From: Watersipora subatra
Lineage: Eukaryota > Bryozoa > Gymnolaemata > Cheilostomatida > Watersiporidae
Direction of reading: 5' to 3'
NCBI RefSeq assembly: GCF_963576615.1
Contig: NC_088708.1
Coordinates: 54,609,196-54,673,195, forward strand
DNA: 64,000 bases
In this document: positions 10,605-30,914 of the stretch, piece after piece
Layout: every line of letters begins with the position of its first letter
Numbering within the stretch: the first letter of the stretch is position 1
Position numbers and translations under genes: made by a program
Notes under the pieces: model-generated
The model's database searches: none
Told to the model about the DNA's origin: nothing
The model's input: only the letters and a program-made list of their open reading frames with translations

Positions 10605-10849
10605 TGTTCAGGACTTGAGTTATCCTCCCATCATTTGTTTCTATATAAATCATATGTGGGCGTACATCCAGTTTCTTGTGAATTATTCTTTTGGTAATCA
10701 TGTGCAGAAAATCGTTAAATTTGAGAAGCAAGCGGAATCACTTTTACCTCTCTGGTTTGAAGTCTATGACAGAAGTTGAGGAATAAACTGACAGTCTCAC
10801 TAATTATTAAGCCCATCAACTTCCATACTCCGTGAACCTAACACAAACA
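10605..10849 (+). repeat. 5' LTR of the Gypsy element
   Basis: Starts TGTTCAGGACTTGAGTTAT and ends CTAACACAAACA, the canonical TG...CA form. It aligns end to end with 16391-16635 with scattered substitutions, so the insertion is old. An AATAAA lies near 10782. Confidence 0.92.
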
Positions 10850-10999
10850 TGGTGCCGCAAGTGAGGAAAGAGGACTATCAGTAACTGCAGCTAGATGCCC
10901 GACACCAGGTGACCGTCGAACAGCTAGATGAGCACGACAGTGACTCAGCTGAGTCATTGCTGTTCATACACGTAATATGTAGAGGCAAAAAGCTTACTT

Positions 11000-12206
11000 C
11001 CATCATCCAAACTGATAGGAGTCAGAGCGATAGAATATCAATTGGACACAGGAGCTTTTTGTAATGTGCTAAGCATCAAAAACTATGATTTACTGGGGGG
11101 ACCGCCCGTGTCTAATAAGAAGCTGCCCAGTCTACAGCTGTACGATGGCATAAAAACAAAGCCGGGTGGAAGATGTGAGGCAATGATTTCAACTTTTCAA
11201 ATTGTAACTAATGGGTCAACTTTTCAAATTCTTTGTAGTAAGGTCATCTAACATGAGCCTGTTTTCATTGGATGCCTACCTGAACCTGGGACTACTATTG
11301 GCAAACAAAAAATGGGTTAAGGTCATTAGTCACGATGAGTTTACAGACATCAACCGCCTTCTCCAGAAACACAAACCGTATTCAGTGGAATAGGTTGCCT
11401 ACCAGGCGAATACCGCATAGAGATAGGCCCAAAGGTCACCCTAACACAGTGTCAAAGCAAAAAAATAGCCCTATCAATGAGAAGCAATCTGAAAGGTCAA
11501 CTCCAGCCACTCACTGATGCAAATATGATCGCAAAGGTGCAAAAGCTTACGCCGTAGATCAGCAATGCCTTAGCAATGAGAAAACCAAACGGTAAACAAA
11601 GACTTTGCATTGACCCAGCGAACTTAAATAAGGCTATTCGAAAAAACCATTTTCCTATGCCTACACTATGGATGTTCTACCATAACTGGATGGTGCCAAA
11701 GTTTTCTCTCTTTGTGACGCCAAAGAGGGTTTCCTTCAATTCAAACTGGACGAGAAGTCAAGTGCCCTAACAACTTTCTGAACACCCTTCAAGAAATATA
11801 AATGGCTCAGAATGATTTTTGGACTGTCATCCAGTCTAGAAGAATGTTAAAGCAGGCTGATGGATGTCCTTGCTAGCCTCAAAGGTGTTATAATTGTAGC
11901 TGATGACATTCTAGTATCGAGAAAAGGAGATACTACTGAAGATGCCACTGCAGATCACAATCAAAATCTACTTACATTGGTCACATAATCTCAAAAGACG
12001 GTGTTTAGAAAGGTATAGACAAGAGCAATCGAGAATATTGAGACTCACCAGGATAGCAATGCCGTTTGGTGATTTTTAGGACATATAAACTATCTCTTAA
12101 AGTTTATACATAACTGCTTAGCCGAGACCGAACCTTTGAGAAGGCTACTTGGAGCAGCTAAAGAAGATTTTCGCCTTGCAAGAAGATCAGGGGAAGGCAT
12201 TCCATA
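11000..12206 (+). pseudogene. Gypsy pol fragment: protease and reverse transcriptase
   Basis: An aspartic protease motif (LDTGA) occurs near 11040. Reverse transcriptase pieces follow: RKPNGKQRLCIDPANLNKAI near 11580, then fingers/palm sequence, and VADDILV (the YxDD-equivalent box) near 11900. GKAFHTLK at 12190-12214 marks the connection to RNase H. Stops and frame changes interrupt it throughout. It continues at 14111 after the inserted element; one copy of the duplicated CCCTCAAG codes for the T-L-K of that motif. Confidence 0.88.
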
Positions 12207-12476
12207 CCCTCAAGCATAGAGTTATCTCCCCCCTAGAGTGATAACTGTGCCTTCAACAACACGAGCGTTTCCGATGCCAACAAGGAGCGTTTAGGCCACG
12301 CCCCTTTTTTGTGCTCCACAGTTAAGATAGTAATTATTGCTCATATTAAAGAAATGATGATTATAGTTTATTACTCTAATATATGCTTACTATTTAAAAC
12401 AATTCAATACCTACATGCCTTGCAAAGGCACTGAGTAGATAGCGTTAAGTAAGTGAGTTAATGCAATCAGTTACTC

Positions 12477-12519
12477 CAATGATATACAGCCCCCACACAT
12501 GGGGGGCTGTATATCATTG
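12477..12519. mobile_element. 43-bp perfect hairpin insertion with 7-bp duplication
   Basis: Left stem CAATGATATACAGCCCCC (18 nt), loop of 7 nt, and an exactly complementary right stem. GTTACTC occurs immediately before (12470-12476) and after (12520-12526). The opposite arm of the host element (13290-13325) has a single GTTACTC and no hairpin, so it serves as the empty site. Confidence 0.85.
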
Positions 12520-12719
12520 GTTACTCATAAATAAGATAGATAGTCATACTGGGGTTGTATTACATTGGTGTGATGGGAAGCTAATCGACTGCCATCAACT
12601 GAAAGTATTGACATTGTATGATGATAGAGTGATTCATTGACACCACAGTTCACAAACAGCCCTTGCATATAATATTAGATTTCAATACATATCAATCAAA
12701 TACATACACTAGCTTGATC

Positions 12720-12749
12720 AAAGATGTCCACTGCTTAGTGGACATCTTT
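12720..12749. repeat. Perfect 13-bp-stem hairpin
   Basis: AAAGATGTCCACT, loop GCTT, AGTGGACATCTTT. It lies in the spacer of the long-inverted-repeat element. Confidence 0.75.
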
Positions 12750-13360
12750 GCTTGATGTAAGCAAGCAAAAATTTCAAAAGTTAGAGTGGCAAATGTTGTT
12801 ATATGTTAGATAGAAATAAATTATACTTAATTATACTAAATTATAATTATTTAAAAATAAAATAGACTTTTTTATTACTTTATTTATTAAATAATTTTTT
12901 ATTGTAATCATAGCTAAACAGATTATATTTAGCCATTACTTGCTAATTATTTTACATTTAAACACATTTACAATTTTATTTTTTTCCTAATTTATTTCAA
13001 CAAAATACTTCTTTCATGATATGAAATTTAAAAGTTGCAGTTGTTTGAAAAAGCTTGAAAACCTTTACAGTTTTCTTTTTCCTCTTAATTCCTTTGAACT
13101 GCTTAAAAATATTTTCTCATGATATGAAGTTTAAAAGTTAGAATGGTAAATGTTATATAAAAATAAATTTTCTGTCCAAAGACTTGTTTATTACTTGGGC
13201 AGCTCGGGTAGTACAGCTCATAGTTGATGGCAGTCGATAGCTTCCCATCACACTAATGTAATACAACCCCAGTATGACTATCTTATCTATGAGTAACTGA
13301 TTGCATTAACTCACTTACTTAACACTATCTATTCAGTGCCTCTGCAAGTCATGTAGGTAT

Positions 13361-13855
13361 CAGGGATTATGTGTATGTCACAATTTCCATTTCCATAATC
13401 CATTTTCATATTATTTCCATTTCCATAACATTTCCCTACTTCAATTCCATATTATTTCCATTTCCATAACATTTCCATAATTCGTTTCCATATTATTTCC
13501 ATTTCCATAATTCATTTCCATATTATTTCTATTTTCATAACATTTCCATAATTCATTTCCATATTATTTCCGTTTCCATAACATTTCCCTACTTCATTTC
13601 TATATTACTTCCAGTTCCATAAAGTTTCCATAATTCATTTCCATATTATTTCCATTTCCATAACATTTCCCTACTTCATTTCCATATTATTTCCATTTCC
13701 ATAGCTTTTCTATAAATCATTTCCATATTATTTCCATTTCCATATTTCTAAAATAAAATTTCCATATCCATTTCCCTAAAATTATGGAAATATTTATGTT
13801 TATGGAAATGGATATGGCAAAGTAAACATTTCCATAATATGTTTAGCGATCCCTG
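13361..13855. mobile_element. hAT-like element made of TTTCCATA minisatellite
   Basis: It starts CAGGGAT and ends ATCCCTG, flanked by the exact 8-bp duplication GTAGGTAT (13353-13360 and 13856-13863). The body is almost wholly a tandem array built from ATTTCCATATTATTTCC and ATTTCCATAAC modules; the last 80 bp switch to the opposite orientation (TATGGAAA). There is no coding capacity. CAGGG termini with 8-bp duplications fit non-autonomous hAT. The left arm of the host element (12400-12420) lacks it and so is the empty site. Confidence 0.85.
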
Positions 13856-14118
13856 GTAGGTATTGAATTGCTTTAAATAATAAGCATATATTAAAGTAAT
13901 AAACTATAATCATTATTTCTTTAATATGACCAATAATTACTATCTTAACTGGAAATTCATGATCCTTGTTTAACCCTTCTCATGGCTGATGTTATTGATC
14001 TAGTCAATTACTACGACTGACTAGCACAAAAAAGGGGCGTGGCCTAAACGTTCCTTGTTGGCACCGGAAATGCTCGTGTAGTTATCACTTTAGGGAGAGA
14101 TAACTCTATGCCCTCAAG

Positions 14119-16285
14119 CAACTAGCAATTGCAAATGGCTAGTTGAGATGGGATGTTATTCCAGAACTTTGAAGTAAATCATCTAGTTACCATGCAACGT
14201 GATGCTAGTACTCATGGACTAGGAGCTGCTCTAATTCAGTACAACAAATCTGTGGCACTTACATCCTGCAGTCTGACAGAGTAAGAAAAACTATGCATTA
14301 ATTGAGCTGGAATTGCTGGCAATAATGTTCGCAATGCAGCGCTTCGATCAATATGCCTTTGATAACCCAGATTTTCACATACATATTGATCATACACCGG
14401 TTACACCTATCTGGAACAAATCTCTGCTCAAAGCTCCTAAGAAGTTCCAATCCTTGTTATTAGCAAGCAGAGATATCCATCAAAGTTGGTTCACGGCCGC
14501 AGTAACCAGCAGATTGCTGCCGACATGCTCTCCAGATGGCCCACAGATATCCTGATGACTAACGCTGTGCCAGTCGGACAGATCTTCCAAATACAGAATC
14601 TCCTTTCTGATCCAAATATAGCTAATCCTCAACAAGATATACCAATCAGCATAGAAACTCATAAGCAAATCCAGACAGCAACACAAACTGAGGTCGAACT
14701 CAAAGAAGTCTAGGAACTAATAGTTGGTGGATGGCACAGGTAGGATCAGATTTCTACAGCCATTGAACACTATTTCCATCTCAGAGACCAGTTAGATGGG
14801 ATAATCTACAAAGGGCCCCTATTAGTTTTCCCAAAATCATACAGGCTCAAAATTCTACAGAAGCTGCACACTAGTCATCAAGGTACAGCTGTAACTCTAA
14901 AAAGAACCAGGTCATGTGCATATTGGCCAAGCATGGCAATAGACATCACATCCCACATAAATTATTGTGTAAGCTTTGTAATGGATGGTCCAGCTCAGGG
15001 CAAAAAAACCATGACATACCGGCAGCTTTATAGGTCAAAGTAGGCATGGACCTGCTCACTCATAAAGGAAAAGACTACATCATAGTTGTGATGTGAATAT
15101 TTAGTGGGAGATGCCCTGAGATTGCAAGTGCATATTGGTTAGGAATAGCCATCGGTATGTAACCACAGATGCTGTTTTATGTCTTATGTCTGTTTTATGT
15201 CTTATGTCTGTTTTATGTCTTCTTGCTGTAACCACATATCTTATCTATGTTGTTAGTGCTGATGAATAACTGGGCAGTCAGTTGTAAATTCCTTTGAGTA
15301 GTGTATGGTAATGTTATTGAATCTTAATAGTAAATAAAGAGCTGAGTTTAATACTCTGACAAACAAGCTACAATCTTGGCGATTACTTCAGTTTATTTTT
15401 TGAGTATGATTCTCAAAAAGATACCAGGACAAAAGCTGTCATAAAGGTGTGCAAGAGAATATTTGGTAGTTATGGTATTCCCATGATTGTGCAATCAGAT
15501 AACGGACCTCAGTTCACAGTCGTGGAATTGGCTAACTTCAGCAACAGTCGGGGATTCGAGCATGCAACGAGCTCTCTAGAGAATGGCCAATCAAATTGGA
15601 AAGCAGAAGTAGCAGTGAAGATATTCAAATGGTTCTTGAGATGAGCAGAAGACCCATTCGTGACAATACTTGAATACAGGAAAACACCCACCGTTGGCAT
15701 GTCCACATCTCGTACCCAAAGAATGATGGGTAGATCCAGCAGATCAATACTTCCTATCAGTGCCTCGACGCATAGCCAGAACAAGAAAATGGTACTCTAA
15801 GAAAAGGAAAGAAAAAGTTAGTGACACAACGATACTGACAAAACGGCAACTGATCTACCTGAATTGAAGATCGGGTCGCCAGTACTGATACGGAGACTCA
15901 AGGTATTAAAGCCGAGTAGAGTAAAGGGAAGGTGCTGGAAGCCATGTCTGACAAATTATATGCAGAGCTCAACAAGGACAGTGGCAACATTTTCCGACGC
16001 AACAGAGTAGACCTCAGAAAAGCCACCATACAACTCGATGAGCCTCTGAACATTGAACAGCACGATATGGATTCCCCAGGCAAGATGCACAAAATCACAG
16101 TTCCAGTAGTAGTTTCTGAGACAGCAGAAGCTGCAACATCAAGTGCCTCTCACTACAGCAAAATCCCACCAACCGAAACAACCACACCTCTAGGTGACAC
16201 AGCCAACAATCCAGGTCACCGATCTCAACGCAATACCCGTATGCCAGCGAAGTGCAATGACTATGATAAGGGAAGATAGATATGA
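14119..16285 (+). pseudogene. Gypsy pol fragment: RNase H and integrase
   Basis: RNase H remnants begin with RDASTHGLGAALIQYN near 14200, then FAMQRFDQYAF and IDHTPVTPIWNKSLLKAPK. The integrase zinc-finger/core region follows (LHTSHQGTAVTLKRTR near 14860; QSDNGPQF near 15495 holds the second catalytic Asp). The last piece (15932-16279) has FRRNRVDLRKA, typical of the integrase C-terminal region, then a basic tail. Stops, frameshifts and the insertion at about 15140-15405 break it. Confidence 0.85.
15140..15405. mobile_element. Insertion inside the integrase remnant
   Basis: Integrase similarity stops after PEIASAY (near 15140) and resumes at TKAVIKVCKR (near 15430). The intervening DNA has three copies of an 18-bp CTGTTTTATGTCTTATGT unit (about 15170-15222) and an AATAAA near 15334. 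It might be a solo LTR or a small MITE. Its exact ends and target duplication are not resolved. Confidence 0.45.
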
Positions 16286-16390
16286 TCCGATAGCACTTGA
16301 ACATACATGTGTTACTCTTTGTTGAATACTAGACAACTTAAAACATTTCAACCGTTTAATCTGTTTATTTCAATTTTATTTGAAAGGAGA

Positions 16391-16635
16391 TGTTCAGGAC
16401 TTGAGTTATTCTCCCATCATTCGTTTTTATACAAACCATATGTGGGCTCACATCTGGTTTCTTGTGAATTATTATTTTGGTAATCATGCACAGATAATCG
16501 TTATATCTGAGTAGTAATCACAATCACGTTTAACTCTCTGGCTTAATGTGTACAACAGAAGTAAAAGAATAAACTGACAGTCCCAATAATTATTCAGTCT
16601 ATCAACTTCCATACTCTGTGAACTTAACACAAACA
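16391..16635 (+). repeat. 3' LTR of the Gypsy element
   Basis: Direct copy of 10605-10849, preceded by the purine tract GAAAGGAGA. It ends CTTAACACAAACA followed by TAGTACC. Confidence 0.92.
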
Positions 16636-25109: not shown

Positions 25110-25680
25110 TTATTGTATGACATATATATCTCCGAGTTTCATATCTCGTATAGTTCTCGGAAGGAAGCTATTATGGTACTTGTTGTTATTTGCGGTTAAA
25201 TTCATGGGCTGCGAGGCACGCTGACTTCTAGTGGTACAATGATCTTCATTTTTATTTTTACTAAAAAGCTCAGGAAACTTGTGTGATATTGCTCCTGGAG
25301 ACTCGGAACAGGCGTCTCTGATCATTTTATATAACAAACATTTACGCAAGTTGGTTCTACGTTCCTCTAACGTCTCCAGGTTCATGTCTTTAATTAAGCC
25401 AGTTATACCAATATCGCGACCTTTAACATTGCAAATAAATCTTACAGCCTTTCTCTGAACCGCCTCAACCTGGTCAACCTCGTATCTCTTGTACGGGTCC
25501 CACACCTGGCATCCATACTCCAAAATAGGTCTAATAAAGGATTTATATGCAAGTAGTTTGAGAGCTTTAGGTGCACTAGATATAGATCTCCTTAACCCTG
25601 TAACTTGCCTTATTTGCTTTTCACAACAATTGTTTATAGACGTTATGCTTTTTGGTTTTTCATTGTAGCGAATTTGTCAT
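25110..25680 (-). pseudogene. LINE reverse-transcriptase C-terminal fragment
   Basis: The minus strand reads KALKLLAYKSFIRPILEYG, CQVWDPYKRYEVDQVEAVQR and KAVRFICN, then LETLEERRTNLRKCLLYKMI and NSFLPRTIRDMK, ending at a stop near 25110. This is the post-RT tail of ORF2 in CR1/Jockey-like LINEs. The catalytic RT region is absent, as expected of a 5'-truncated copy. It is open for 137 codons from its Met at 25523. Confidence 0.85.
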
Positions 25681-28700: not shown

Positions 28701-30914
28701 GTCGCTTTGTAGCAGTCCCAGGGGGTTCACTCTCTTCAATTCTTCCCCAAGGCTAGTCTGAGATGTGATAAAATGCACCCTTTCCACTGATTTACACATT
28801 AATAAAAAAACTACTCCTTCATCACTACAGACTAATTACCCTTTTTTTGCTCATGAATACCCCTTTCCACTGTGTAGAAAAGGGCTATTCATGTACCAAG
28901 CTATAAAACATACCCTTTTTTTGAAAACACTAGTGTCAGACCAACAAAAAAATACCCCTAAAAACGTGTTTTTTTTTCGCCTAGCCCTTTGGGGATGAAA
29001 GCTGAGAGTGAACCCCCTGCTGTAGCAGTGATCAAATCTGCTGCTAGTTGATGTAGTATTTGCGCGAGTTTTTAGTTGGAGTCATCATACTTTGATACTA
29101 TGCTGATTACATCATAATGATGCTCGCTAATAAGCTTTTCTTGGGAGGATACACATTAAGTCCAATCATTTTCTTCGTGAACATGAAACAAATCTGTTTA
29201 CCAACCACATCTGCACTAGTTTATTGGTATTGTGATGAAACCTTGACCTCTCCCACATCGCTATATGGCAACTTCAGAAGGAAGATGTATGTAAAGATTG
29301 CTGATATTAAATATGCAAATGCTCTTCACATTGTTCATAAAGCCATTGTCCATGCAAATCTATCCGACAATAAATTGAAAGAAAGTTGATCGATGCAGTT
29401 GAATTGATAGCTTGAAAAATCTCTCTTGTCAAGAACATTATAAATTCATTAAAGAAAGTTTGTCATGAAAGATTGACTCAATTGTGTCAAAAAGTAGTCC
29501 TAACGTATCAAAACAATAATTATGGTTGCCAGTACAGACTAACGAGGCAGAGTTATTTTTTGTTGCTACTGACTCTGACACAGAAATTTGGGAATTTGGT
29601 TAATAAGGTTGATCGTTTCAGGTGCCATGAAGCAACTGGTGATTATCACAGCTTTAGATTTTATCGAAAGTTAGTCATAGATAATCTGTTAGAATGCATG
29701 ATCAGGAAAATAATAGAGTATATACTATTGCTAGTTGCCTGGAGGATATAATCAGCTAATTAATGGAAATGAGCCATTTTGGATTACATTTAAACGAGAT
29801 CAGTCTTGTGAAGTAGTACTGGTCAACTGACACATATCATTGCTTTACATTCTACCAATATTGATCACTTAGAGAGGTTTGGCCATGTACATGACTGATC
29901 AAAGCGCATTATTCATGCTATCTTGCTTTTCTTTTAAACACCTCACAGGTCTGAACATTTCCTTTGTCTATGTAAGTTTATTGAGCGATTGTTTTGTCGA
30001 TCGCGGTAGATCTCCTTTATTTCTAGACTTACATCCTGTAGCATATATTTTAGGGGTACCGGAGGAGACAACCTTCTGGTAGCGATGACGGCACAATGAT
30101 ATCTGATGTCACATCTTCTCTACATAGCTCTTGCGTCATTCTATCAGGCAGCACATCTGAGGACAGCAGCATGAGTATAGTATCTGCCGATAGATCAGTA
30201 GGGAAGGAGTCTATATTCCAGCATGATTCACCGCATAATGTGTCACAGTGGGTAGCCACTTGCAAAAGTGATGACGCTGAGGAGCTTAATCATCACCATC
30301 GACGAAGGTCTGTCGAGTCGATTGTGTCGTGCGCATCGGAAGAGCCGATGGAAGCTTTTGCTGCCGAGTCATTTGGTTACCATTATGCCGCTGCTGGATG
30401 CCCCACAGATCTGAAGACTCAAGGAATCTTTGGAACTTCTAACTGTCATGCAGTAACTGATGATTGGTTAATTCCGGGTAACACAAATGTAACATCAGTT
30501 TCTGCAAACTCTGTTCAGTTGGACACTGAGATGAGTGAGTGGCATGAGAAAAGATCTGGCATGAATTCTTCTACTAACGACTCGAATGACAGTTGGGTAC
30601 GGTCTTCCTGGCAAGGCTTCCAAACTGACGATAACAGTTGGCTGCAGCTTGGGTTGATATCAGAAAGCGCTAAAGTTGGAGTTAAACTGCCAAGGGACAC
30701 ATTCAGTTGGCTTACAGGAGAGGAAAAATGTGATGAACCAAGACAAAAGGATGACAGAATTGTTACATCAAAGCTGGACCGTGATTGGCTGCTTGTGAAA
30801 AATGAATTGCATAAAATTGCTATGAGCAACAACTCAGAGTGGCTGATAGGTGATGCCCAGGAAGATTGTTTAGTCAAAGATAATAGATTTGGTGCTGCAG
30901 TTTTCCAAGATTAG
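25716..30914 (+). CDS. NCOA4: NCOA4-like ferritinophagy receptor
   Basis: In vertebrates NCOA4 is the autophagy receptor that brings ferritin to lysosomes and is also a nuclear coactivator (ARA70). Six exons join in phase: 25716-25829, 25979-26181, 26311-26452, 26655-26781, 28400-28554 and 30054-30914, giving 533 aa (human about 614). Residues 1-150 are helical and ARA70-like (RIEKVESAIKSLQGVRQSL...LLVEVDKLLHSK...LGCLRNCLQ). The rest is a low-complexity acidic/Ser-rich tail with many WL-type motifs: KWLLTP, TEWLIHD, DEWLEKV, DDWLIPG, NSWLQLG, FSWLTGE, RDWLLVK, SEWLIGD. Near the C-terminus I502-x7-W510 within IAMSNNSEWLI matches human IKNSPLSEWLI, where I489 and W497 are needed for ferritin binding. 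The 1.5-kb last intron carries a hAT MITE. Low overall similarity to vertebrates makes the call strong but not certain; an extra exon between 28554 and 30054 is possible. Confidence 0.87.
28719..29019. mobile_element. hAT-type MITE in NCOA4 intron 5
   Basis: 301 bp with inverted ends CAGGGGGTTCACTCTC. The 8-bp GTAGCAGT lies on both sides (28709-28716 and 29022-29029), though two extra bases separate each copy from the terminus. Inside are tracts of CCCTTTTTTTG. There is no coding region. Confidence 0.7.

Follow-up and report, generated by a model that had tools for sequence, protein, structure and literature searches.

A nested locus on a Watersipora subatra contig

The window analysed here is a 64-kb stretch of the Watersipora subatra genome (C1:54609196-54673195), and searches were run against the 784-Mb assembly. 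At 10605..16635 (+) the window holds an old retrotransposon with long terminal repeats (LTRs), into which a non-coding element with long inverted arms is inserted (the middle element). The middle element in turn carries a 43-bp palindrome (the hairpin) in one arm and a CAGGGAT...ATCCCTG element in the other. The hairpin, initially annotated as a small element nested among the others, is quite probably the healed scar of an excised P-superfamily transposon.

The outer element was recognized by its LTR pair and by pieces of RNase H and integrase in a Ty3/gypsy-like order. Pairwise comparison placed the 5' LTR at 10605..10849 (+) and the 3' LTR at 16391..16635 (+); over 245 bases the two were 84.5% identical (Kimura two-parameter distance 0.18), with termini TG...CA, and the body between them contained numerous stop codons. 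Five pieces were each matched to domain models on their own. Three had any match: those to the RNase H and integrase zinc-binding models passed the curated cut-off, and that to the integrase core model fell slightly under it. Two matched no domain model; the single piece tried for reverse transcriptase gave no match. Judged by its TG...CA LTRs and by RNase H standing before integrase, the element is a member of the Ty3/gypsy group. No clean target duplication was found around it (flanks CGTTTAG before the element and TAGTACC after it).

The middle element spans 12215..14110 (no strand is assigned to it or to the features inside it), has ends CATAGAGTTATCTC, and is flanked by exact copies of an 8-bp target duplication, CCCTCAAG, at 12207..12214 and 14111..14118. 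The 43-bp palindrome (12477..12519) consists of 19 nt of a transposon end, CACA and 20 nt of the inverted end, and stands between exact copies of the 7-bp duplication GTTACTC at 12470..12476 and 12520..12526. The CAGGGAT element (13361..13855), which many middle elements carry here as a passenger, stands between exact copies of the 8-bp duplication GTAGGTAT at 13353..13360 and 13856..13863. All three duplications were exact and lay where the initial annotation had put them; on the + strand of the window, CCCTCAAG and GTAGGTAT occur twice each and GTTACTC four times. With the two inserts removed, the arms aligned over 318 bases with 94% identity. The right arm was empty at the hairpin site and the left arm at the CAGGGAT site, which bears out the proposal that each arm serves as the empty site of the other. 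Seven relatives of the outer element were retrieved from 43 matches, the window not counted. When the outer-element flanks were joined around a single CCCTCAAG, the alignment crossed the empty site in six of the seven relatives, and the nesting itself is real; the joined sequence gave no alignment with the seventh. Relative to three relatives with printed alignments, the LTR element carries ~16 additional bases at window ~14139-14154.

Copies of the middle element were sought with the left arm up to the hairpin as query. From 1695 first-look candidates 40 were scored and the best 30 retrieved, the window included; these are the copies closest to that in the window, and older copies may differ. 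A hairpin end lay at the identical site in 30/30, and the CAGGGAT element at its site in the opposite arm in at least 22/30, a lower bound in that L028 and L043 align across the CAGGGAT site as filled and at six loci the retrieved stretch did not show the site. Because both inserts sit at fixed sites across middle-element copies, the composite predates the jump into the outer element: it entered the LTR element ready-made, and nesting does not date the inner events, contrary to the earlier view that their order could be read from the nest. The copy comparison supports an order in which the hairpin and CAGGGAT events, in either sequence, took place in an ancestral middle element, the composite multiplied, and one copy entered an LTR element that was already inserted. 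Nesting depth is not time order where a composite moves as a unit. The three parts had been taken for independent insertions rather than a fixed unit; hairpin and CAGGGAT do stay together in most of the middle-element copies retrieved, and the hairpin also occurs at numerous sites elsewhere, each time with a separate duplication.

A 41-bp tandem repeat rich in TTTCCAT fills most of the CAGGGAT element (window 13379-13789). Ten of 40 scored copies were read at both ends. Six occupied the GTAGGTAT site in a middle-element copy, and the other four, located elsewhere, showed no clear 8-bp duplication by eye; a scan of the retrieved loci gave exact or near-exact 8-bp pairs only at the GTAGGTAT site. 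Independent insertions with 8-bp duplications of their own, which had been predicted for this element, were therefore not found among the copies examined. Its 8-bp duplication and CAGGG tip, seen at one insertion site in the sample, make it a candidate hAT element. Inside or adjoining the tandem-repeat element, at six loci (L026, L028, L032, L034, L042 and L050), CAATGATATACAG ends of both orientations were grouped in threes to sixes amid TTTCCAT-type repeats, resembling palindromes in series.

Palindromes of the hairpin class across the genome

Palindromes built from two exact 17-bp ends 0-20 bp apart (34-54 bp in all) were found at 577 places in the genome, with 0 for a backwards control. 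A shorter class (exact 13-bp ends, 0-7 bp apart) was found at 158 places, partly nested within the 577, so the counts are not additive. Single ends of the family numbered 2001 and 2015 on the two strands. For flank analysis 83 of the 577 were retrieved, comprising the first 50 listed on C1 and 33 with short centres, a non-random sample. Comparison of their flanks removed 22 passengers at the middle-element GTTACTC site and two duplicated loci, leaving 59 independent sites. Exact 7-bp duplications flanked 41 of these, 7 had a 7-bp duplication with one mismatch, 2 had exact and 1 near-exact 8-bp duplications, and 8 had none; when left flanks were compared with right flanks of other sites, agreement was seen in 2/3422 pairs. 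Among 14 retrieved members of the shorter class (L158, L159 and L171-L182; 29-31 bp), 8 had exact 7-bp duplications, 1 had 6 bp and 5 had none.

A larger element has the same ends. Elements of ~815 bp with hairpin-family ends and inverted ends of ~75 bp gave 1424 candidates, and all 40 that were scored matched from base 1 to 813 or 815. Where both flanks were read, 15/17 had an exact 7-bp duplication; a 143-bp relative, excluded from the 17, had a duplication with one mismatch. At the target sites of the ~815-bp elements, position 2 was T in 15/15 and position 6 was A in 14/15; T also stood three bases before in 10/15, and A three bases after in 11/15. At the same positions the palindrome targets had T in 35/41 and A in 39/41, with the outer T in 31/41 and the outer A in 33/41. 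The common ends, duplication length and target motif therefore indicate that one insertion machinery placed both the palindromes and the ~815-bp elements.

One alternative is that full elements shrank where they stood, collapsing to their tips by replication slippage or ordinary internal deletion with no cut by a transposase. Such a collapse would leave duplications intact, as observed, and adjacent end pairs among the first 100 single ends listed did include intermediate spans, one of 84 and one of 143 bp. Apart from those two, however, the pairs clustered at 39-59 bp (12 pairs) and at 697-843 bp (7 pairs), with two further pairs 16 and 19 kb apart. The retained ends moreover stop near 19 nt rather than being spread, and the same structure occurs in two other families of this genome (below). 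We consider in-place collapse very unlikely.

Arm lengths were measured at the 59 sites against the ends of the ~815-bp element, accepting a run of 4 to 6 C. Retained length peaked at 19 nt on both sides (33/59 and 36/59) and never exceeded 23 nt, though the pattern permitted longer ends. No filler was needed to account for 36/59 joins. Where at least 13 bases separated the exact ends, 47 of 50 listed palindromes were distinct (some of the 47 being passengers), and 25/47 held at least 8 nt extra of the 13-nt end. Seventeen retrieved fillers of at least 9 nt, from two families, were compared with the ends; their summed longest match was 124, whereas 500 composition-only shuffles averaged 69 and reached 84 at most, and 9/17 individually gave P values of 0.012 or less.

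These features were weighed against the possibility that the palindromes are themselves mobile, that is, transposons of 29-52 bp consisting of little more than a pair of abutting ends and mobilized in trans by the larger element's transposase. The perfect 7-bp duplications seen at many sites and the target motif in common with the large element are as expected of such transposons, as is the occurrence of two centres, CATGATG (L014 and L084) and CAATGG (L011 and L062), at two sites each with different duplications. Against it stand the distinctness of 47/50 complex-centre palindromes, the common flanks of retrieved repeats of one complex centre, the near-fixed arm length and the copying of end sequence into the fillers. 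It would also be hard for a rod of 30-40 bp to bring its ends together, and Drosophila P is said to require 138 and 216 bp of its ends for movement (PMC1562414). Movement in trans is unlikely; it is retained at low probability because no coding partner of the 7-bp family turned up, a full element and a scar were not seen paired at one site, and the arm length is not 17. In a stronger version the palindromes would be living transposons that jump intact through a folded single strand uniting their ends, with the centre remade at each jump. To our knowledge 29-52 bp is below the size of any transposon known in a nuclear genome, and we regard this version as highly improbable.

Several palindromes travel as passengers of other repeats. 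The complex centre CTGTATATCATTCCTG and its kin were considered as a spreading unit and set aside: six retrieved copies share left flanks (one with a different right flank) and were taken as passengers of another repeat. A similar pair is listed at C1:76944330 and C3:14631161. At L163-L168, and also at L073, a palindrome of the 7-bp class rides as a passenger in a repeat family distinct from the middle element; its centre varies among copies, and L168 differs in its right flank.

P elements and the excision-scar reading

The genome was searched with the P RNase H domain, which gave 175 matches; 150/342 candidates were scored and four loci read. P transposases are abundant. One locus combines P RNase H and GTP-binding domains with 27-bp perfect ends (CAGTGTCGTATAGGGAG...) and an 8-bp duplication, GGTAGGAT, read from its printed flanks. 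The first 13 bases of its ends, set end to end, were found at 30 places, and a backwards control found none. Twenty of the 30 were retrieved, the remainder including an identical pair: 15 had exact 8-bp duplications, 3 had one mismatch and 2 had more, while mismatched partners reached one mismatch or fewer in 2/380 pairs. The arms matched the P locus over 16 nt at most sites (12/20 and 11/20); because they usually diverge after 16 nt, these palindromes are taken to have been made by relatives of the element that was read. Several P transposase matches on several contigs (for example C6:21268817, C9:9589871 and C9:15052509) have an open frame of exactly 612 amino acids with no stop, and this common frame suggests recent movement of P elements. 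At L219 and L222 (C4:51029109 and C10:7352951; flanks similar), P-type palindromes lie at GCTGTATA in an apparent end of the 7-bp family, a scar within the end of another element.

The middle element has counterparts of the same kind. End-end palindromes with its ends were found at 17 places in the genome, and the 2 that were retrieved both had exact 8-bp duplications. Because of its 8-bp duplication and of end-end scars resembling those of P elements, the middle element is probably a P-superfamily derivative.

The hairpin is read as an excision scar because the arm length is near-fixed, the fillers copy the ends, and the same structure is built from ends like those of a P element confirmed by its domains. 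It has intact duplications and end arms of near-fixed length joined with microhomology or filler, its class has end-copied fillers, and a full-length element exists with matching ends, duplication and motif. We infer a transposase cut as the origin of the palindromes, the polarity of the tails, and the membership of the 7-bp family in the P superfamily. A P-superfamily transposon with ends CAATGATATACAGCCCCC and a 7-bp duplication would have been excised from one arm of an ancestral middle element. Its transposase would have made staggered cuts, at the tip of the transposon on one strand and ~19 nt further in on the other, so that a single-stranded tail with ~19 nt of transposon end stayed on each flank. 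Fill-in and end joining of the tails would then have produced a palindrome in the order duplication, end, join or filler, inverted end and duplication. The scar would have been copied as a passenger as the middle element multiplied, the CAGGGAT element would have inserted into the other arm before or after the scar was made, and one composite copy would later have entered the LTR element, by then already old.

An alternative assignment would place the 7-bp family with hAT instead of P and make the palindromes hAT footprints. The CAATG tip and the T...A target motif are reminiscent of hAT as well; hAT elements are, against this, typified by short footprints and by duplications of 8 bp. The long ends retained here match instead P cleavage, in which the second strand is cut 17 bp into the inverted repeat with an unusually long stagger (PMC7776569), as well as the junctions left by Drosophila P (PMC2895639), and duplications of 7 or 8 bp are common to Galileo (PMC4168063). 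We regard a hAT origin as very unlikely.

Several observations weigh against an excision scar. No coding partner with CAATGATATACAG ends was found: the four P loci read from the RNase H search (L100 without its start) all have other ends. No site was observed at which one copy has the full element and another the palindrome. The arm peak is 19 nt, compared with 17 in Drosophila P, on a measure that allows three C-run lengths; the middle-element-end palindromes have a broad arm range (14-36 nt across the 17), and most P-type palindromes depart at base 17 from the P element that was read. Short centres recur. Over 54 sites from a looser passenger filter (not the 59 above), CATG was found at 8/54, with CATGATG and CAATGG at two sites each; the 41-bp palindrome with centre CATGATG has different duplications at L014 and L084, as expected of a mobile palindrome. 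CATG can arise when two 19-nt ends are joined bluntly, but CATGATG is harder to explain in this way. Complex centres also form 27 pairs within two edits, of which passengers account for only some.

If the palindromes are excision scars, the assembly alone records where P-type transposons sat and left, and it shows the depth of the transposase cut inside the end and the mode of break healing in a genome that has no laboratory genetics. A short palindrome with a perfect target duplication, usually accepted as proof of a transposon, can then be an excision scar, which calls for caution.

Elsewhere in the window, two open frames without Pfam matches were noted. That at 25110-25676 (-; 188 amino acids) may be the tail of a non-LTR reverse transcriptase, and that at 30054-30914 (+; 286 amino acids) may encode a cellular protein.

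Comparison with known systems

Healed P excisions in Drosophila consist of the duplication, up to 17 nt of end, a microhomology, blunt join or insertion, up to 17 nt of inverted end and the duplication again, and the insertions are templated (PMC2895639). The palindromes described here have the same arrangement. They differ in that the Drosophila junctions came from one reporter in laboratory flies, whereas those here stand in an assembly at many sites, with arms of ~19 nt and 7-bp duplications, some of them copied as passengers of other repeats. Some Drosophila junctions lose most of the ends (PMC2895639), and excision by zebrafish THAP9 in fly cells left larger deletions (PMC10983969); neat junctions are therefore not general. 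A search by title and start of abstract, covering part of the literature, returned no natural genome-wide set of such scars.

Galileo, of the P superfamily, has duplications of 7 bp and sometimes 8 bp with the consensus GTATTAC (PMC4168063) and a palindromic target motif (PMC4168063, PMC2775673). The family described here likewise has 7-bp and rarely 8-bp duplications and a palindromic target motif. The ends of Galileo are, in contrast, long and internally repetitive, and the passages on Galileo in these sources report no scars. The REP and REPIN sequences of bacteria are similar in being short dispersed palindromes tied to a transposase. Those are bacterial and reportedly associated with tyrosine transposases, whereas the palindromes of this genome are flanked by target duplications of fixed length and are read as products of repair.

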